Assembly (NCBI GenBank): GCA_021778935.1
Contig: JAJYBQ010000029.1
Location: forward strand, 1-14,627
Source: Pseudomonadota bacterium
GTDB taxonomy: Bacteria > Pseudomonadota > Gammaproteobacteria > Burkholderiales > Burkholderiaceae
Length of the DNA: 14,627 nucleotides
Direction of reading: 5' to 3'
Shown here piece after piece: positions 3,826-14,627 of the stretch (within the stretch, counting starts at the first letter, position 1; every line of letters begins with the position of its first letter). A program made the translations under genes and the position numbers. The notes under the pieces were generated by a model. The model had not been told where the DNA came from. It saw nothing but the letters and a program-made list of their open reading frames with translations, and made no database searches.

Positions 3826-4813
3826 GCGCCCGGTTTCGCTACGAATCGGCGCCGTCGCGCTGGCCGCGATCGCAGCATCCGCCGACCCGGGCGCTCGCGC
3901 CTGCGGCGGGGTTGCCGCAATCGACGACGCCGGGCGGGAAGTCCGTCTCCCGCAACCGGCGCAACGCATCGTCAGCCTGTCGCCAGGAATCACCGAACTG
4001 CTGTTTTCCGCCGGCGCGGGAGCGCGCATCGTGGGAACCACGGAACACTCGGATTACCCTCCTGCTGCGCGCCGCATTCCCCGCATCGCACGCAACGCGG
4101 GAATCGACCTCGAGCGCGTCGCGGCACTGCGTGCCGACCTGATCGTGGCGTGGGGCAGCGGCTATTCCCCGGCACGGCTGGATGCGCTGCGTGCCCTCGG
4201 CATCCCGGTCTACATCGCGGAACCCCGCACGCTGGCCGGCATCGCCACCGAGGTCGAGCGCCTGGGCATCCTTACCGGGTCCCCCGCGGTTGCAACCGCC
4301 GCGGCAATCCGGTTTCGGTCGCGCCTGCAATCCCTGCGCAACCGGTACGCAGGACGGAAACCGCTGCGGGTATTCGTGCAGATCTGGGCCGACCCGCTCA
4401 TGACGCTCACGGGCAGGCACGTCGTGAGCGAGATGCTGCAGGTCTGCGGCGCGCGCAACGTGTTCGAACGCCTGCCGGGCATCGCGCCCGCGGTCAATCC
4501 CGAAGCGGTGCTTGCCGCCGATCCCGATGCGATCCTCACCGCGGAACCCGGCGACCGCTCGGGTGCGGATGACGGTGCGCTGGATTTCTGGAAACGCTTT
4601 CCCGGGCTGCGCGCAGCGGCGCACGACGGCTTTCTCTTCCTCGATGCCGACGAACTCGACCGGGAAAGCCTGCGGACGCTGGATGCCACCCAGGCGCTCT
4701 GCGCGCGCCTGGCGCGGATTCGTGAAGCCCCACCCGCGCCTCGCATGCCGCGCGCCGGGGGAACTACGGGCTGGATCAGATTCGGCCGGCCGGACGGGGT
4801 TGGGGATCGATGA
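3806..4813 (+). CDS. btuF: Periplasmic cobalamin-binding protein, BtuF-like
   Basis: This is a class III substrate-binding protein of an ABC importer (BtuF/FecB type), expected to hand vitamin B12 to BtuCD in the periplasm. From the ATG at 3806 it has 335 residues: basic N-terminus (SLRRRRP), hydrophobic segment, and a plausible signal-peptidase site after ARA. The core begins with [19 protein letters not shown], the standard start of the family, followed by [10 protein letters not shown], the linking helix region [10 protein letters not shown], and C-lobe motifs ADPLMTLTG and ADPDAIL. A proline-rich tail extends past the usual end. The start codon lies inside dapB with only AGG directly before it, so the exact start is uncertain; the frame is open to 3737. 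The assignment to B12 rather than iron-siderophore or heme comes from the adjacent riboswitch-controlled btuBCD, not from this sequence alone. Confidence 0.85.
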
Positions 4814-4830
4814 GGCAATTGCGGGGATGA

Positions 4831-4853
4831 CGCTCGCACCGCGCAGGCGAGCG
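4831..4853. terminator. Hairpin between convergent btuF and btuD
   Basis: CGCTCGC (4831-4837) pairs perfectly with GCGAGCG (4847-4853) around a 9-nt loop, in the 51-bp gap between two converging genes. It is well placed as a two-way terminator, but there is no T-tract on either side. Confidence 0.4.
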
Positions 4854-4864
4854 CGGCGGCCGCG

Positions 4865-5641
4865 CTATTCCGCGACGACGATCCGCCGGCCTGCCACGAA
4901 CGCTTCGACGAAGCGGACCCCGAACAGCCGCCCCAGATTTTCCCCCGTCAGCACACCCTGCGCCCCCCCCGCACGCCACCAACCGTCGCCGGACAGCAGC
5001 AGTGTGTGCGTCGCAAAGCGCAGCGTGGCATCAAGGTCGTGGAACACGGCGACGATCGCCCGCCCCGCGCCGCCCTGTACGGCGGTCGTCAGGCAACGCA
5101 GTACGCTCCCCCGCTGTCGTGGGTCCTGATGGGACACCGGCTCGTCGAGAAACAGCAGCGGCGTATCCTGCGCCAGCGCGGCAGCAATCGCCACGCGCTG
5201 ACGCTCGCCGCGGGAAAGACTGCGGATGTCGCGATTGGCCAAATGGGCGCACGCCATCCGTTCCAGAAAACCCAGCGCCGCGGCGGCGCCGCCGTCGCGA
5301 TCGCCACCGCGCATCCGAAAGCGCCCGGCGAGCACCGTGTCCAGTGCGGTGAATCCGAACGGATCGGCCCATCGGTCGGCAACGAAGGCCCGGACCCCGG
5401 CAAGCGCTTCCGCGGCGGTCCCGTCCGCCGGCAGTCCCGCCAACGTCACGGCGCCTGCGCCGGGCCGCTGCGCGCCGGCCACTACCCGCAGCAGGGACGA
5501 CTTGCCCGCTCCGTTGGGGCCGACGACGGCCCAGCGTTCGCCGCGCCGCACCTCCCATCGCAACCCCCGGACGAGCGTTCTCGCGCCGTAGCGCAAGTCG
5601 AGGTCACGACACGCCAGCAACGGCGCGTCCGGATCGCTCAC
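4865..5641 (-). CDS. btuD: Cobalamin ABC transporter, ATP-binding subunit
   Basis: This subunit hydrolyses ATP on the cytoplasmic side of the inner membrane to drive B12 import through BtuC. The 258-residue product has Walker A GPNGAGKS, the signature LSRGERQRV, Walker B LLFLDEP, and the switch histidine in VFHDLD. The Q-loop is unusual: where relatives have a glutamine, as in an AYLPQ-type sequence, this protein reads RAFVADRWADPF, so Asp seems to replace Gln. Translation starts at GTG 5641-5639, which shares GTGA with the btuC stop; the long open frame upstream of it is only the btuC region in another frame. It is the last gene of the riboswitch-controlled btuB-btuC-btuD unit. Iron-siderophore ATPases look alike, so the substrate is inferred from context. 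Confidence 0.9.
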   Translation of the reverse strand: MSDPDAPLLACRDLDLRYGARTLVRGLRWEVRRGERWAVVGPNGAGKSSLLRVVAGAQRPGAGAVTLAGLPADGTAAEALAGVRAFVADRWADPFGFTALDTVLAGRFRMRGGDRDGGAAAALGFLERMACAHLANRDIRSLSRGERQRVAIAAALAQDTPLLFLDEPVSHQDPRQRGSVLRCLTTAVQGGAGRAIVAVFHDLDATLRFATHTLLLSGDGWWRAGGAQGVLTGENLGRLFGVRFVEAFVAGRRIVVAE

Positions 5642-8670: not shown

Positions 8671-8699
8671 AAAAGCCGCGCCGACGGTCGGACGCGCGG
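8671..8699 (-). terminator. Candidate riboswitch-controlled terminator in the btuB leader
   Basis: On the minus strand CCGCGC (8699-8694) pairs with GCGCGG (8681-8676), enclosing a smaller CGA/TCG pairing, and is followed by C and four T (8674-8671). It lies 11 nt after the end of the cobalamin riboswitch, where premature termination would be expected. The T-run is short, so control at translation is also possible. Confidence 0.45.
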
Positions 8700-8709
8700 G
8701 CCCACCCAA

Positions 8710-8960
8710 CTCGGCCGGTCTCCGGGCTGAGAGCGGGCCCGATCGCCTTCCCACGACGCCCGGAGGCATCGCAGTGGCACTGGATCGGACTTTCGGCGGC
8801 CCGGACTTCCGGACAACCGATGCTCTCGTACCGTTGCGGGGGCAGCACAGGTTGGCGCGCGGCGGATCGGCAAGCCAAACCCGAAAGGGGTTTGTTCCTT
8901 CGCCACGCGCGACTGTTTCCCGTTTCCCCTCCGCCGGCAAAACCGACGGAAGGCACCGAG
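8710..8960 (-). promoter_or_regulatory. Cobalamin riboswitch upstream of btuB
   Basis: The minus strand shows the conserved elements in the right order. P1 arms CTCGG (8960-8956) and CCGAG (8714-8710) enclose: GGTGCC and then GGGAAAC near the 5' end, CCCCGCAACGGTA (8841-8829), GCCACTGCG (8778-8770), GGGAAGGCGA (8752-8743), and the B12 box AGCCCGGAGACCGGCC (8728-8713). This is the adenosylcobalamin-type aptamer that represses B12 uptake genes when the cofactor binds. It lies 97 nt before the btuB start and should control btuB, btuC and btuD together. At about 250 nt it is somewhat long, because of an insert between the GGGAAAC and CCCCGC elements. The promoter should lie at about 8970-9020; an AT-rich CAATAT there is a weak -10 candidate. 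Confidence 0.95.
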
Positions 8961-9048
8961 GAGGCATATTGCAAACGCGACGATCGAAAAACCGTACGCG
9001 GATTGCGGCGCCGATTCTATCAGCGGGCGCTCTGCTACCATCCGCGCC

Positions 9049-9587: not shown

Positions 9588-9594
9588 CGGGGCT

Positions 9595-9768
9595 CCCTGC
9601 GGTGCGCGCGCAAAGGCTGTTATGTTCCTTGAACCAATGCGCTTTGCGCTCGGTCACCGGGCTCGCGTCGCGGTGCGGTCGGCACGCGTTTGCTGAACCT
9701 AAACGGCGCGGACGGCGACCACCCTGGACCCTCGGTTCAGGATGAGCAGCCGGGCGGCACCCGCGGGG
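9595..9768 (+). ncRNA. ssrS: 6S RNA
   Basis: 6S RNA binds sigma70-RNA polymerase by imitating an open promoter and lowers transcription in stationary phase. The evidence is structural and positional. CCCTGCGG at 9595-9602 pairs with CCGCGGGG at 9761-9768, and after a one-base bulge three more pairs form (UGC with GCA), closing a long hairpin of about 174 nt. Inside are the expected opposed strands of the central bubble, with TTCCTTGAACC (about 9625-9635) on the 5' side and GGTTCAG (9734-9740) on the 3' side; CTTGAACC also occurs in E. coli 6S RNA. The apical part (about 9645-9700) is GC-rich. The site directly downstream of zapA is the classic place for ssrS. The ends are estimated to within a few bases. 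Confidence 0.85.
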
Positions 9769-9784
9769 CCCTTTGCCTTTGATC

Positions 9785-11931: not shown

Positions 11932-12118
11932 GTGGTTCGCCGACGGGGCAAGGGACCGAGGACGCACAGCCTGGCCGCCCGGCATCACGCCGGCCGGAGT
12001 AAGGTTTCGCCTGGCGCGAAGTTCCCCGATCATCCCGCGGAGTGCACGCCAAGATGAAATCAGCCCGTATCGCGGTGCCGGGAACCGGATTCGCCGGGAG
12101 ACATCCTGGGACGATGTG
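11932..12118. other. Intergenic stretch with no gene seen
   Basis: This part of the 367-bp gap between lgt and the hemoglobin gene holds no open frame with family similarity on either strand and no tRNA-like cloverleaf. Apart from GC-rich short inverted repeats (for example around GCCGGCCGG near 11988) I see no structure. It presumably carries upstream control sequences for both divergent genes. Confidence 0.5.
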
Positions 12119-12147
12119 TTGACGAATCCTCGTTCGCCCAATAAGAT
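12119..12147 (+). promoter_or_regulatory. Sigma70 promoter of the hemoglobin-reductase operon
   Basis: TTGACG (12119-12124) and TAAGAT (12142-12147) are separated by exactly 17 bp, the best promoter match in the window. Transcription should start at about 12154, leaving a leader of about 100 nt before the hemoglobin ATG at 12256. Confidence 0.75.
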
Positions 12148-12165
12148 TCATCCGCCATGACTCTT
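12143..12165. promoter_or_regulatory. 23-bp inverted repeat resembling an NsrR operator
   Basis: AAGATTCAT (12143-12151) faces ATGACTCTT (12157-12165), whose complement reads AAGAGTCAT; the arms agree at 8 of 9 positions and the whole spans 23 bp. The NsrR consensus known from E. coli has arms AAGATGCAT in the same 23-bp layout, so the arms match it at 8 and 7 of 9 positions. The site overlaps the -10 and the start of transcription, where a repressor would block the promoter. NsrR is a nitric-oxide-sensing repressor. The repeat is seen; the regulator is inferred. Confidence 0.55.
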
Positions 12166-12243
12166 TTGAGGCGTGGTCGGCAACACCGGGGCATCGAAAT
12201 TCGACATCATCCCGGGACTCCCGGTTTCCCAAAATTTCGCTAC

Positions 12244-12249
12244 GAGGAG
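12244..12249 (+). promoter_or_regulatory. Ribosome-binding site of the hemoglobin gene
   Basis: GAGGAG lies 6 nt before the ATG at 12256 and fixes that start over the in-frame ATG at 12157, which lies within the putative operator and has no such site. Confidence 0.85.
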
Positions 12250-12255
12250 AATGGA

Positions 12256-12621
12256 ATGAGCAGTTTGTACGAGCAGTTGGGCGGTGAAGCGGCGGTCAAC
12301 GCGGCAGTGGACATTTTCTACCGCAAGGTTCTAAAAGATGACCGCATCAAGCATTTTTTCGACGGCGTTGACATGGACCGTCAGGCAGCCAAGCAGAAAG
12401 CCTTCCTCACGATGGCGTTCGGCGGTCCCAACAACTACACCGGCGAAGACATGCGGAAGGGACATGCGCACCTTGTCGCCCGCGGCTTGAACGACTCCCA
12501 CTTCGACGCCGTAGTCGAAGACCTCGGCGCGACCCTGAAGGAACTGAACGTTCCGGCCGGATTGATCGCGCAGGTGGCAGCCATCGCCGAAACCACGCGC
12601 AACGACATCCTCGGGCGCTGA
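12256..12621 (+). CDS. glbN: Group I truncated hemoglobin
   Basis: This is a 121-residue two-over-two hemoglobin. It begins SSLYEQLGGEAAVNAAVDIFY, typical of group I, and resembles cyanobacterial GlbN (Synechocystis) closely through DDRIKHFF and QKAFLTMAFGG. Haem-pocket residues can be placed by that likeness: Y22 (B10), Q43 (E7), K46 (E10), Q47 (E11) and the proximal H70 (F8) in KGHAHLV. Synechocystis GlbN has His at E10, which binds the iron as a sixth ligand; here it is Lys. The Tyr-Gln pocket is typical of proteins that bind oxygen tightly and turn NO into nitrate. The protein has no reductase domain, but the next gene 16 nt downstream encodes one. The operon has a strong promoter with an NsrR-like repeat, which fits NO defence. 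Confidence 0.95.
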   Translation: MSSLYEQLGGEAAVNAAVDIFYRKVLKDDRIKHFFDGVDMDRQAAKQKAFLTMAFGGPNNYTGEDMRKGHAHLVARGLNDSHFDAVVEDLGATLKELNVPAGLIAQVAAIAETTRNDILGR

Positions 12622-12637
12622 GCAGCAGTCCGCAACG

Positions 12638-13603
12638 ATGCCTACGATCGTTGTCGGCGGGCGGGCATACGAATGCCCGCCCGGAGCGACCCTCCTCGAA
12701 GGACTGGAAGCACACGGTGTCCCGATGCGTTCATCCTGCCGCGCCGGCAGCTGCCAGGCCTGCATGGTGCGCGCCGTGTCGGGGGAGGTTCCCGAAGCGG
12801 CGCAGGTGGGCCTGAAGGCGACGCTGCGGGCACGCAATTACCTGCTGGCCTGCATCTGTCGGCCAACCGGCGACATGGAGATCGTGACCGATGACGACGC
12901 GATCACGCGCGTACCGGCCGAGGTCGTGGAGATCGGCGAGCTGACGCCCGACGTCATGTCGATCCGACTGCGGCCAGAAGGACCCTACGAATACCGGGCG
13001 GGGCAGTTCCTGCGCCTGTACCGGGACGAACAGACTTCGCGCTGCTATTCGCTTGCCAGCGTACGCGAACTGGATCGCGATATCGAGCTGCACGTCACCC
13101 GCGTGCCGCAAGGACAGGTCAGCGCCTGGATCCACGAATCCGCCCATCTCGGTCAGACCATGACGATCTCCGAAGCCACCGGAAACTGCTTCTATGTTCC
13201 CGGAAATCCGGAGCAGCGGATCCTGCTGGTCGGCACCGGCTCCGGGCTGGGTTCCCTGCTGGGTATCGTCCGCGATGCCCTGCGACAGGGGCACACCGGA
13301 CCGATCCGGCTCTACCATGGCACCCTGCGCCGCGACGGGATCTATGGCGCCGATCGGATCGCGCCGCTCGCACACGATCACCCCAATCTGCACTACGTTC
13401 CCTGCGTGTTGCGTGAAGAAGCGCCGCCGGGAGGGTCGCAGGGCAGCGTGGTGCAGGTCGCCCTGGCGCAGAACCCCGATCTCTCGGGCTGGCGCGTGTT
13501 CCTGTGCGGCGATGCGAATCTCGTTGCTGGCGCCAAGCGAGAGGCGTTTCTCGCGGGGGCATCGATGGACGCGATCCACGCCGACCCGTTCCTTCCGTCC
13601 TGA
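12638..13603 (+). CDS. [2Fe-2S] ferredoxin-flavin-NAD(P)H reductase fusion
   Basis: The 321-residue product joins a plant-type ferredoxin domain (about 1-85) to a ferredoxin-NADP reductase-type module (about 90-315), the layout of electron-transfer components of oxygenases. Cluster ligands are C34, C39, C42 and C72, in CRAGSCQAC and LLACIC. The flavin motif RCYS is at 135-138. The nicotinamide-binding loop GTGSGLG is at 199-205, and the C-terminal FLCGDANLV is near 288-296. It should pass electrons from NAD(P)H through FAD and the cluster to a partner protein. The only candidate here is the truncated hemoglobin encoded 16 nt upstream; no oxygenase subunit is nearby. Families such as phenol or methane monooxygenase reductases and CDP-6-deoxyglucoseen reductases share this layout, so a database name of that kind need not give the true function. 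Confidence 0.9.
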   Translation: MPTIVVGGRAYECPPGATLLEGLEAHGVPMRSSCRAGSCQACMVRAVSGEVPEAAQVGLKATLRARNYLLACICRPTGDMEIVTDDDAITRVPAEVVEIGELTPDVMSIRLRPEGPYEYRAGQFLRLYRDEQTSRCYSLASVRELDRDIELHVTRVPQGQVSAWIHESAHLGQTMTISEATGNCFYVPGNPEQRILLVGTGSGLGSLLGIVRDALRQGHTGPIRLYHGTLRRDGIYGADRIAPLAHDHPNLHYVPCVLREEAPPGGSQGSVVQVALAQNPDLSGWRVFLCGDANLVAGAKREAFLAGASMDAIHADPFLPS

Positions 13604-13609
13604 CCGCAT

Positions 13610-13637
13610 CCCCCTCCCGCCTCGGCGGGGGCGGGGG
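13610..13637. repeat. GC-rich palindrome between convergent reductase gene and lptG
   Basis: CCCGC (13616-13620) pairs with GCGGG (13625-13629) around a 4-nt loop, and CCCCC (13610-13614) can pair with GGGGG (13633-13637) further out. It fills the 48-bp gap between two converging genes and may act as a two-way terminator, though without T-runs. On the minus strand the adjoining GAGGTGCCCCCGCCCC differs by one base from a segment after btuB. Confidence 0.5.
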
Positions 13638-13651
13638 CACCTCCGCCCCGC

Positions 13652-14627
13652 TCAACGCCGCTCGATCCAGTACAACGCCCCCAGCGCGATCGTGAACGCG
13701 ACCATGCCGGGCAGGGCCGCGACGACCATCGGCGGCCAGGTGTTGATGATCCCCAGGTTCGAGAAGATCTTGTTGATCGCATAGAACACCACGCCGATCA
13801 TGATGCCGGCGAAGATCTTCAGGCTGACTGTTCCTGCACGTACATGCAGATAGGCGAACGGCAACGCCAGGGCCATCATGACGATGACCACCGGTGGGTA
13901 AAACACCTTCTGCCACAACGCCAACATATACCGCTCGGTCCGTTGGTGGTTCTCATCCAGGTGCCGGATATAGCGGTACAGGCTGTAGCCGCTCAGCTTT
14001 TCCGGCTTGACCAGCAGCACTCCGAAAATTTCGGGCGTGAGGTCTGATTTCCAGGCCATCGTCGGCGTCCGCAGAATGCGGGTCTGCGCCAGGGCGCCGG
14101 CCGTCGCCGCAACGGCGCCATCCGGTCCCGATGTGCCCGACGGCACCGACCCGACCGGCCGCAGCACCGCAACCTCCGGGTATTGCGTCTCCACCACATC
14201 GGTGAGCATCCACCCCTGGCCGCGCAGGTACTGTCCGCGCCCGGCCGTGGTGATCGATCGCAGGCGAAGCGCGCGGTCGAAGGAAAAAATCCGCAAGCCG
14301 TCGACCTCACCGTCGTTGCGCACGGTCTGTACGTTGACGAAGCGCATCCTTTGCCCCGCAGACACGCCGGGAACGACATCGCGCACCCAGATCCCCGATC
14401 CCCCACCCTGAAACAGATGGGCGCCGACGGCGTGCGATTTCAACCGCTGCGCCAACTCCTCCGCCGGGGGCGCAACCACCTCGCCAAACACGTAGGTGAG
14501 CACCGCGAATCCCATCCCGACCCAGAACACGGCGTCGACCAGCCGCCGGGTGCTCATGCCCGAAACCCGCATGATCGTGAACTCGGAGTTCGACGCCAGC
14601 TTGGACAGCGCGTAGATCGTCCCGATC
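13652..14627 (-). CDS. lptG: LPS export permease LptG (partial, start outside the window)
   Basis: LptG with LptF forms the inner-membrane part of the LptB2FG transporter that extracts lipopolysaccharide and passes it to LptC. About 324 residues are visible; the first few dozen, including helix 1, lie beyond the window end. Visible features are SKLASNSEFTIMRVSGMSTRRLVDA, the conserved cytoplasmic coupling segment of the family, a second membrane helix (VFWVGMGFAVLTYVFGEVVAPPAEE), a long periplasmic jelly-roll region (about GSGIWVRDV to TPEIFGVLL), the DENHQRTERYMLALWQKVFYP linker, and C-terminal helices with FYAINKIFSNLGIINTWPP, a typical LptG signature. The gene ends ERR and converges on the reductase gene. 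The internal ATG at 14572 is not its start, because conserved sequence continues upstream. LptF would be expected just beyond the window. Confidence 0.92.
   Translation of the reverse strand, partial: IGTIYALSKLASNSEFTIMRVSGMSTRRLVDAVFWVGMGFAVLTYVFGEVVAPPAEELAQRLKSHAVGAHLFQGGGSGIWVRDVVPGVSAGQRMRFVNVQTVRNDGEVDGLRIFSFDRALRLRSITTAGRGQYLRGQGWMLTDVVETQYPEVAVLRPVGSVPSGTSGPDGAVAATAGALAQTRILRTPTMAWKSDLTPEIFGVLLVKPEKLSGYSLYRYIRHLDENHQRTERYMLALWQKVFYPPVVIVMMALALPFAYLHVRAGTVSLKIFAGIMIGVVFYAINKIFSNLGIINTWPPMVVAALPGMVAFTIALGALYWIERR

Follow-up and report, generated by a model that had tools for sequence, protein, structure and literature searches.

A truncated hemoglobin gene followed by a reductase gene, the arrangement studied here, has a described forerunner in Legionella pneumophila. 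Rodionov et al. proposed in 2005 that the glbN-lpg2536 operon of this species has a role in NO oxidation and predicted it to be an NsrR target, the sole one in that genome, which had no hmp; flavohemoglobin (Hmp) is the usual member of NsrR regulons in the parts of that paper available to us (PMC1274295). Gardner repeated the Legionella proposal in 2012 and, in the available sections, suggested ferredoxin reductases and FNR-like proteins as general donors of truncated hemoglobins (PMC3820574). The idea of two-gene NO oxidation is thus not new, having been published in 2005 for Legionella. Judged by its published description, as far as it was available, glbN-lpg2536 consists of a truncated cyanoglobin followed by a ferredoxin reductase, as does our pair, but the Legionella operon was reported for one genome, whereas we found the type of pair described below across many. 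Experimental precedent for a split globin-reductase system is given by Bjgb and Flp of Bradyrhizobium japonicum, a globin and a flavoprotein encoded by separate genes of one operon, as our pair probably is; Bjgb or Flp mutants were reported to be more sensitive to NO donors (PMC4724949). Unlike the globin studied here, Bjgb is a 3/3 single-domain globin, and the available text describes Flp as also serving nitrate assimilation (NasC) and Bjgb-Flp as being under NasS-NasT control (PMC4724949). Chlamydomonas THB1, THB2, and THB4 are, like our globin, group I 2/2 globins with a lysine at E10, but they are eukaryotic, whereas ours is bacterial (PMC7082302, as far as available).

The pair that we analyzed lies in a 14,627-nucleotide stretch of DNA, the whole of which is called the window here. 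Its first gene (12256..12621, forward strand) encodes a 121-residue truncated hemoglobin of group I (GlbN type), with its ATG at 12256 and its stop at 12621; the mechanically called open reading frame begins at 12157 and has 154 residues, and the homologues begin at 12256. A Pfam scan matched PF01152 with 65 bits over residues 3-115, and a PDB comparison returned cyanobacterial GlbN, cyanoglobins, and group 1 truncated hemoglobins as the nearest solved structures (E = 1.1e-39 for cyanoglobin 1s69). With a helix numbering on the cyanoglobin alignment that we partly presume, its pocket consists of TyrB10 (Y22), GlnE7 (Q43), LysE10 (K46), GlnE11 (Q47), and the proximal HisF8 (H70). The full-length PF01152 match together with HisF8 and TyrB10 places the protein in group I, which agrees with a sequence-only reading of the window that had recognized a group I truncated hemoglobin with a Tyr-B10/Gln-E7 pocket; the lysine at E10 was absent from that reading. 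The positions were read from the cyanoglobin alignment, which is ungapped over this stretch, and from the B10/E7/E10/E11 spacing of THB11 in the available text of its description (PMC7082302).

The second gene (12638..13603, forward strand), which begins 16 nt after the globin stop, encodes a 321-residue reductase that we presume to be the dedicated partner of the globin. Its coordinates and its three [2Fe-2S], FAD, and NAD(P)H domains were confirmed as previously read: it carries Fer2, FAD_binding_6, and NAD_binding_1 in the Pfam scan, which is the three-domain architecture of oxygenase reductases, and C34, C39, C42, and C72 have the spacing of plant-type ferredoxins. The best solved structural neighbor of its structure model (pLDDT 88.2, pTM 0.79) was the P450 reductase GcoB, likewise found by sequence, in a comparison (VIA-align) that hardly covered the first 40 residues of the model. 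By sequence and fold, its closest relatives of known function were GcoB, CarAd, T4moF, and BenC; plasmid-borne NdoR was 32-33% identical to it, and all five have the [2Fe-2S]-FAD-NAD architecture and fold in common with the window reductase. Two other assignments were rejected. The iron-sulfur-binding ferredoxin reductase NF004317/PRK05713 scored 194.1 bits, under the equivalog cutoff of 338, and the Hmp model NF009805 scored 52.5 bits (cutoff 432) over the reductase part only, the globin and the reductase being separate genes. Both Hmp and the window pair couple a globin with an FAD/NAD(P)H module that reduces it or, in our pair, would do so, but Hmp is one chain with an N-terminal 3/3 globin and no [2Fe-2S] domain, whereas the window pair is two chains with a 2/2 globin and a ferredoxin domain.

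Upstream of the globin, a -35-like hexamer TTGACG (12119..12124) and a -10-like hexamer TAAGAT (12142..12147), both on the forward strand and separated by 17 nt, together have 9/12 matches and form the only sigma-70-like site in 11950-13750, where shuffled sequences had a mean of 0.3; TTGACG stands before the same TAAGAT in the three nearest relatives of the window, L001-L003. A single promoter-like site was therefore upheld from the earlier claim of one strong promoter, but its strength was not borne out. The globin and the reductase would be carried on one transcript. The other open reading frames of the window include, by reading, recN, fur, a bamE-like gene, dapB, btu genes, and zapA, and Pfam confirmed EVE, Crp/Fnr-type, Lgt, and LptF/G proteins. 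As previously stated for this window, no oxygenase subunit was recognized nearby, either among the four neighbors scanned by Pfam or among the remaining open reading frames, which were judged by reading. Rfam placed a cobalamin riboswitch at 8696-8975 on the reverse strand, before a TonB-receptor-like open reading frame (btuB by reading), and a 6S RNA at 9591-9773 on the forward strand, after the open reading frame read as zapA-like. L001-L003 have about 1.1 kb of extra DNA between lgt and the globin (about 4341-5455 there, corresponding to 12092-12098 of the window), which in L001 and L003 contains a gene of 385-390 codons, absent from the window, whose product resembles a type III sulfide:quinone reductase; the L001 product scored 74 bits with NF049943, far under the cutoff.

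A profile built from 16 reductases found 293 relatives in named genome contigs, and we analyzed the best 80 of these. In every one of the 80, a globin gene immediately preceded the reductase gene on the same strand, a constancy that puts the pairing far beyond chance. The gaps between the two genes ranged from 5 to 202 nt and were mostly 11-30 nt. The upstream globin was a strong match (at least 199 bits) in 79 of the 80 loci, and the same number of these best 80 paired globins kept all five pocket residues (Y/Q/K/Q/H); the exception in both respects was L053, whose globin is divergent (52 bits). According to the record titles, the hosts include Gallionella, Sideroxydans, Ferrovaceae, Sulfuriferula, Methylococcus, and Methylobacter, along with many unassigned metagenome-assembled genomes (MAGs); L048 is the locus of Sulfuriferula multivorans. 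No named Legionella sequence occurred among these best 80 of 293 reductase matches. A third conserved partner gene was sought and rejected: when open reading frames of at least 80 residues were clustered over the 80 loci, setting aside the globin, the reductase, an NsrR-like gene, and overlapping frames, no other cluster occurred in more than 12 loci (the 22 largest clusters were considered, each judged by residues 1-70 of a single representative). In three Methylobacter loci (L059, L079, and L080), the opposite strand carries another globin no more than 3.5 kb away, which in L059 and L080 is followed by a second, divergent reductase.

To this we added, as a less biased sample, a class survey of 369 genomes taken evenly across the class that includes G025, the genome with the Methylococcus capsulatus locus L037; in each genome, at most 6 reductase candidates and 11 globin candidates were scored. 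We ourselves placed the family line at 248 bits, above an interval down to 199 bits in which the survey had no scores; NdoR scored 218-220 bits on the same profile, and the list of reductases reached down to about 168 bits, well under this line. The survey yielded 62 family reductases in 56 genomes, and a globin lay immediately upstream of 50 of them, so that the conservation of the pairing was confirmed here as well. Among the other 12, three (G239, G351, and G407) are single chains of a reductase with a C-terminal truncated globin, and one (G401) is immediately preceded by a truncated globin of a different kind. The gene of the G043 reductase was probably interrupted by contig ends; the globin and a reductase start lie on another such end (L106). 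For the remaining seven, the stretch read contained no globin; five of them are second copies in genomes that have the pair, and no oxygenase was found among 14 scanned neighbor genes of these seven. One globin-less family reductase (L090:3292-4275) stands beside an open reading frame resembling part of heme-copper oxidase subunit I and has an 18/22 NsrR-type site just upstream. Eight of the 369 genomes encode a fused double truncated hemoglobin, with two group I domains in one frame of 272-297 residues (L099:3169-4005, L100:3203-4000, G033:C56, G106:C108, G346:C98, G378:C11, G284:C1, and G233:C36); it is not paired with the family reductase, and the best NsrR-type sites in the two upstream regions read scored 15/22 and 18/22.

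A maximum-likelihood tree of 119 rows contained 112 family members and, for comparison, five reductases of generic type together with two naphthalene dioxygenase reductases of the NdoR type; a 100/100 branch separated all 112 family members from the others. Within these 112, a globin lies upstream of 99 and another kind of globin upstream of two, eight are without a globin, and the three fused copies fall on three branches. The tree has some long branches and a small outgroup and was midpoint rooted for drawing only. It omits three paralogues under 150 bits and the window reductase itself but includes L001-L003, which are 91-95% identical to the window reductase, and G409. The pair also occurs on Methylocystis plasmids: 12 plasmid records were matched, and two (L112 and L113) of the three Methylocystis matches read were plasmid pairs, one on a plasmid typed as mobilizable and both near a gene for an RNA polymerase sigma factor. 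Near the window, the family is patchy, the reductase being found at E <= 1e-60 in 5 of the 41 genomes that comprise G001 and its relatives, so that lateral transfer or repeated loss is possible. The G410 copy is partial with one internal stop, and no globin was found within its 2.2 kb of sequence.

These data bear on two simpler explanations of the pair. Two unrelated genes might merely be neighbors in a compact region, and short intergenic gaps are indeed common among unrelated neighbors, while the genes around the pair vary from locus to locus. This explanation, to which we give a negligible probability, is refuted by the 80 of 80 best loci, the 50 of 62 class-survey reductases, and the tree with its 99 of 112 globin-linked members; the fused copies on three branches and the joint presence of both genes on Methylocystis plasmids speak against it as well. 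Alternatively, the reductase could serve an oxygenase encoded elsewhere in the genome, with the globin as a bystander, as might be thought from its closest relatives of known function, GcoB, CarAd, T4moF, BenC, and NdoR, all of them oxygenase reductases. However, NdoR adjoins its oxygenase (ndoABC), and GcoB, BenC, CarAd, and T4moF are likewise encoded with their own oxygenases, whereas the window family forms a separate group that adjoins, or is fused to, a truncated globin. Its homologues thus did not sit with oxygenases, and the 100/100 branch sets the globin-linked reductases apart from NdoR. With no oxygenase recognized beside the pair and globin fusions in existence, we regard the bystander explanation as very improbable for this pair and oxygenase service as unlikely to be the usual role of the reductase family.

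The fusions deserve a closer description. They consist of a [2Fe-2S]-FAD-NAD reductase with a truncated globin at its C-terminal side and a tail rich in cysteine (CxxC...CxxC), a domain order that is the reverse of that of Hmp (L091:3168-4757, L092:3363-5210, and L097:3044-4576; proteins P0241-P0360). A search with the L091 fusion returned 1,213 proteins at E <= 1e-60, which may include unfused reductases; among the best 120 matches listed, PF01152 was present in 116, and PF01152, PF00111, PF00970, and PF00175 were present together in 113. Y373 and K397 were invariant in 36 aligned fusions, and we read them as the probable equivalents of the B10 tyrosine and the E10 lysine. The fused globin is distant from the paired ones (30-34 bits on the paired-globin profile), so that the fusions argue for the kind of partnership and not for the descent of the window pair. 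An AlphaFold model of the fusion (pLDDT 79.8, pTM 0.52) packed its domains too loosely to place the heme relative to the cluster. Natural fusion is a classical argument for joint action, and its occurrence between a truncated globin and a reductase of the same family lends support to the proposal, made earlier from the sequence of the window, that the two proteins would form a dedicated redox pair. We found no description of a reductase-truncated-globin fusion in the open-access literature.

An NsrR-like gene was present in 54 of the 80 loci, always on the opposite strand, and was not seen in the other 26, some of which are short; among the 77 loci in which the upstream sequence exceeded 700 bp, 49 had it within 800 bp. 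Of the 54 genes, 53 encode a motif of three cysteines, commonly of the form C-x7-C-x5-C, the exception (L052) being a fragment. For the three NsrR-like proteins scanned, NF008240 (NsrR) was the best NCBIfam model, with 126-142 bits against a cutoff of 182. Scored with what we take to be the operator consensus of NsrR, 64 of the 80 loci had an upstream site of at least 15/22, a score reached by 3.25% of 1,600 stretches taken at random from these loci; six sites scored 21-22, with perfect sites at L059 and L079, and 16 loci had no site of at least 15/22. Of 15 more pairs from the class survey, 11 also had a site that reached this score, and two of these sites were perfect, a count made with no shuffle control. 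The window has a candidate operator at 12143..12165 (forward strand), which scored 15/22 with a degenerate right half and overlaps the -10 hexamer. It is the best in the 14.6 kb (next best, 13), and when the upstream region was shuffled 100 times, one shuffle scored as well. It lies 113-114 nt from the globin start, as do the 16-17/22 sites of L001-L003, and the L002 site is degenerate like that of the window. No NsrR gene was found in the window or adjoining the pair in L001-L003, the nearest relatives. The sister genomes G001 and G002 encode an NsrR homologue elsewhere (142 bits, cutoff 182), beside an ammonium-transporter-like open reading frame (by reading), and G003 had a weak match of 42.8 bits. 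NsrR may act at the window's own degenerate candidate operator. Control by NsrR is not universal, since no NsrR-type site was found at the two Methylocystis plasmid pairs read or at the three fusion genes.

We then compared the distribution of the pair with that of Hmp. No Hmp above the curated cutoff was found in any of the 42 pair genomes examined, which cover 42 of the 80 loci and many of which are draft MAGs; all 42 had partial matches to the Hmp model, mostly in the reductase half. None of the sister genomes G001-G003 had an hmp over the cutoff. In the class survey of 369 genomes, a full-length Hmp was present in 28 (26 over the cutoff and two full-length proteins just below it) and the pair in 50, and no genome had both, compared with 3.8 expected (Fisher p = 0.021, with genomes counted as independent of kinship). 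The Hmp survey suggested with the sequence-only reading agreed with that interpretation, as did the outcomes for the two refuting conditions accessible to computation, loss of the adjacency in relatives and oxygenase neighbors of the reductase homologues. A separate 3/3 globin domain was present in several pair genomes (e.g., G029, G032, G033, G036, and G039), so that other globins could share the task.

Taken with the constant pairing and the NsrR linkage, this makes it likely, in our view, that NO induces the pair and that its two proteins together work as an NO dioxygenase, comparable to a flavohemoglobin divided between a truncated globin and a reductase of the oxygenase type. In such a system, NO would inactivate the Fe-S repressor NsrR and thereby free the promoter, whose -10 would until then be covered by NsrR, and the globin and the reductase would be made together. 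The oxygenated globin would convert NO to nitrate, leaving a ferric heme, and the reductase would return the heme to the ferrous state with electrons passing from NAD(P)H through FAD and [2Fe-2S]. The reductase is presumed to reduce this globin, and NO is presumed to be the substrate; sequences do not separate NO dioxygenation from NO or nitrite reduction.

Other nitrogen-oxide chemistry therefore has to be weighed, in which the LysE10 globin, held in the reduced state by the reductase, would at low oxygen turn nitrite into NO or NO into N2O, with dioxygenation being minor. Several of the named pair carriers are iron oxidizers or methanotrophs by their record titles, organisms that live at low oxygen, and LysE10 is kept in 79 of the 80 paired globins. 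In the available text on Chlamydomonas, the E10 lysine is the sixth ligand in THB1, THB2, and THB4, and THB1 and THB11 reduce nitrite in vitro, but the quoted rate is low, 45.9 per M per s for THB1 (PMC7082302). The share of Bjgb in the N2O production of Bradyrhizobium was also judged low by its authors in the available sections (PMC4724949), and NO removal agrees better with the linkage to NsrR and with the exclusion of Hmp; we hold this chemistry to be an unlikely main function. The globin might instead serve oxygen or peroxide, by buffering O2, supplying a terminal oxidase, or acting as a peroxidase, with a reductase that merely keeps it ferrous. Peroxidase activity has been reported, in the text available, for a truncated hemoglobin of Roseobacter denitrificans (PMC4319818), and for the trHbN of Sideroxydans ES-1 the authors favored a terminal-oxidase role because NO reductases are present (PMC3770913, as far as available). 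The linkage to an NsrR-like gene and operator in distant lineages, however, points to NO as the signal, and we regard an oxygen or peroxide function as quite unlikely.

Returning to NO dioxygenation, we lean somewhat toward a broader claim, namely that this is a second major bacterial NO dioxygenase independent of Hmp, in which a LysE10 truncated globin would be driven through [2Fe-2S] by its own reductase. It would be encoded as a two-gene operon, often controlled by NsrR, in Gallionellales, Methylococcales, other Pseudomonadota, and Methylocystis plasmids, or as a single chain of reversed order, and would replace Hmp in those lineages. We found no experimental study of the globin-reductase pair in the open-access literature, nor a paper there on the breadth of the pairing or on the LysE10 pocket. 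Because the Legionella proposal came first and the evidence agrees with it, the idea raised by the sequence-only reading is well supported but was anticipated. Beyond the 2005 proposal, our analysis contributes the wide distribution of the pairing, its linkage to NsrR, the exclusion of Hmp, the fusions, and the conservation of LysE10; the pair proves to be much more widely distributed and much more constant than the 2005 report implied.

To our knowledge, THB1, THB2, and THB4 of Chlamydomonas have no operon partner, and we know of no native reductase for most truncated hemoglobins, so that a role as NO dioxygenase is hard to test for them. With a constant partner, natural fusions, and an adjoining NO-sensing repressor, both the likely reductase and the likely signal can be named for this family, and two purified proteins suffice for a test. 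If the proposed function is true, the pair would explain how iron-oxidizing and methane-oxidizing bacteria without Hmp tolerate NO.
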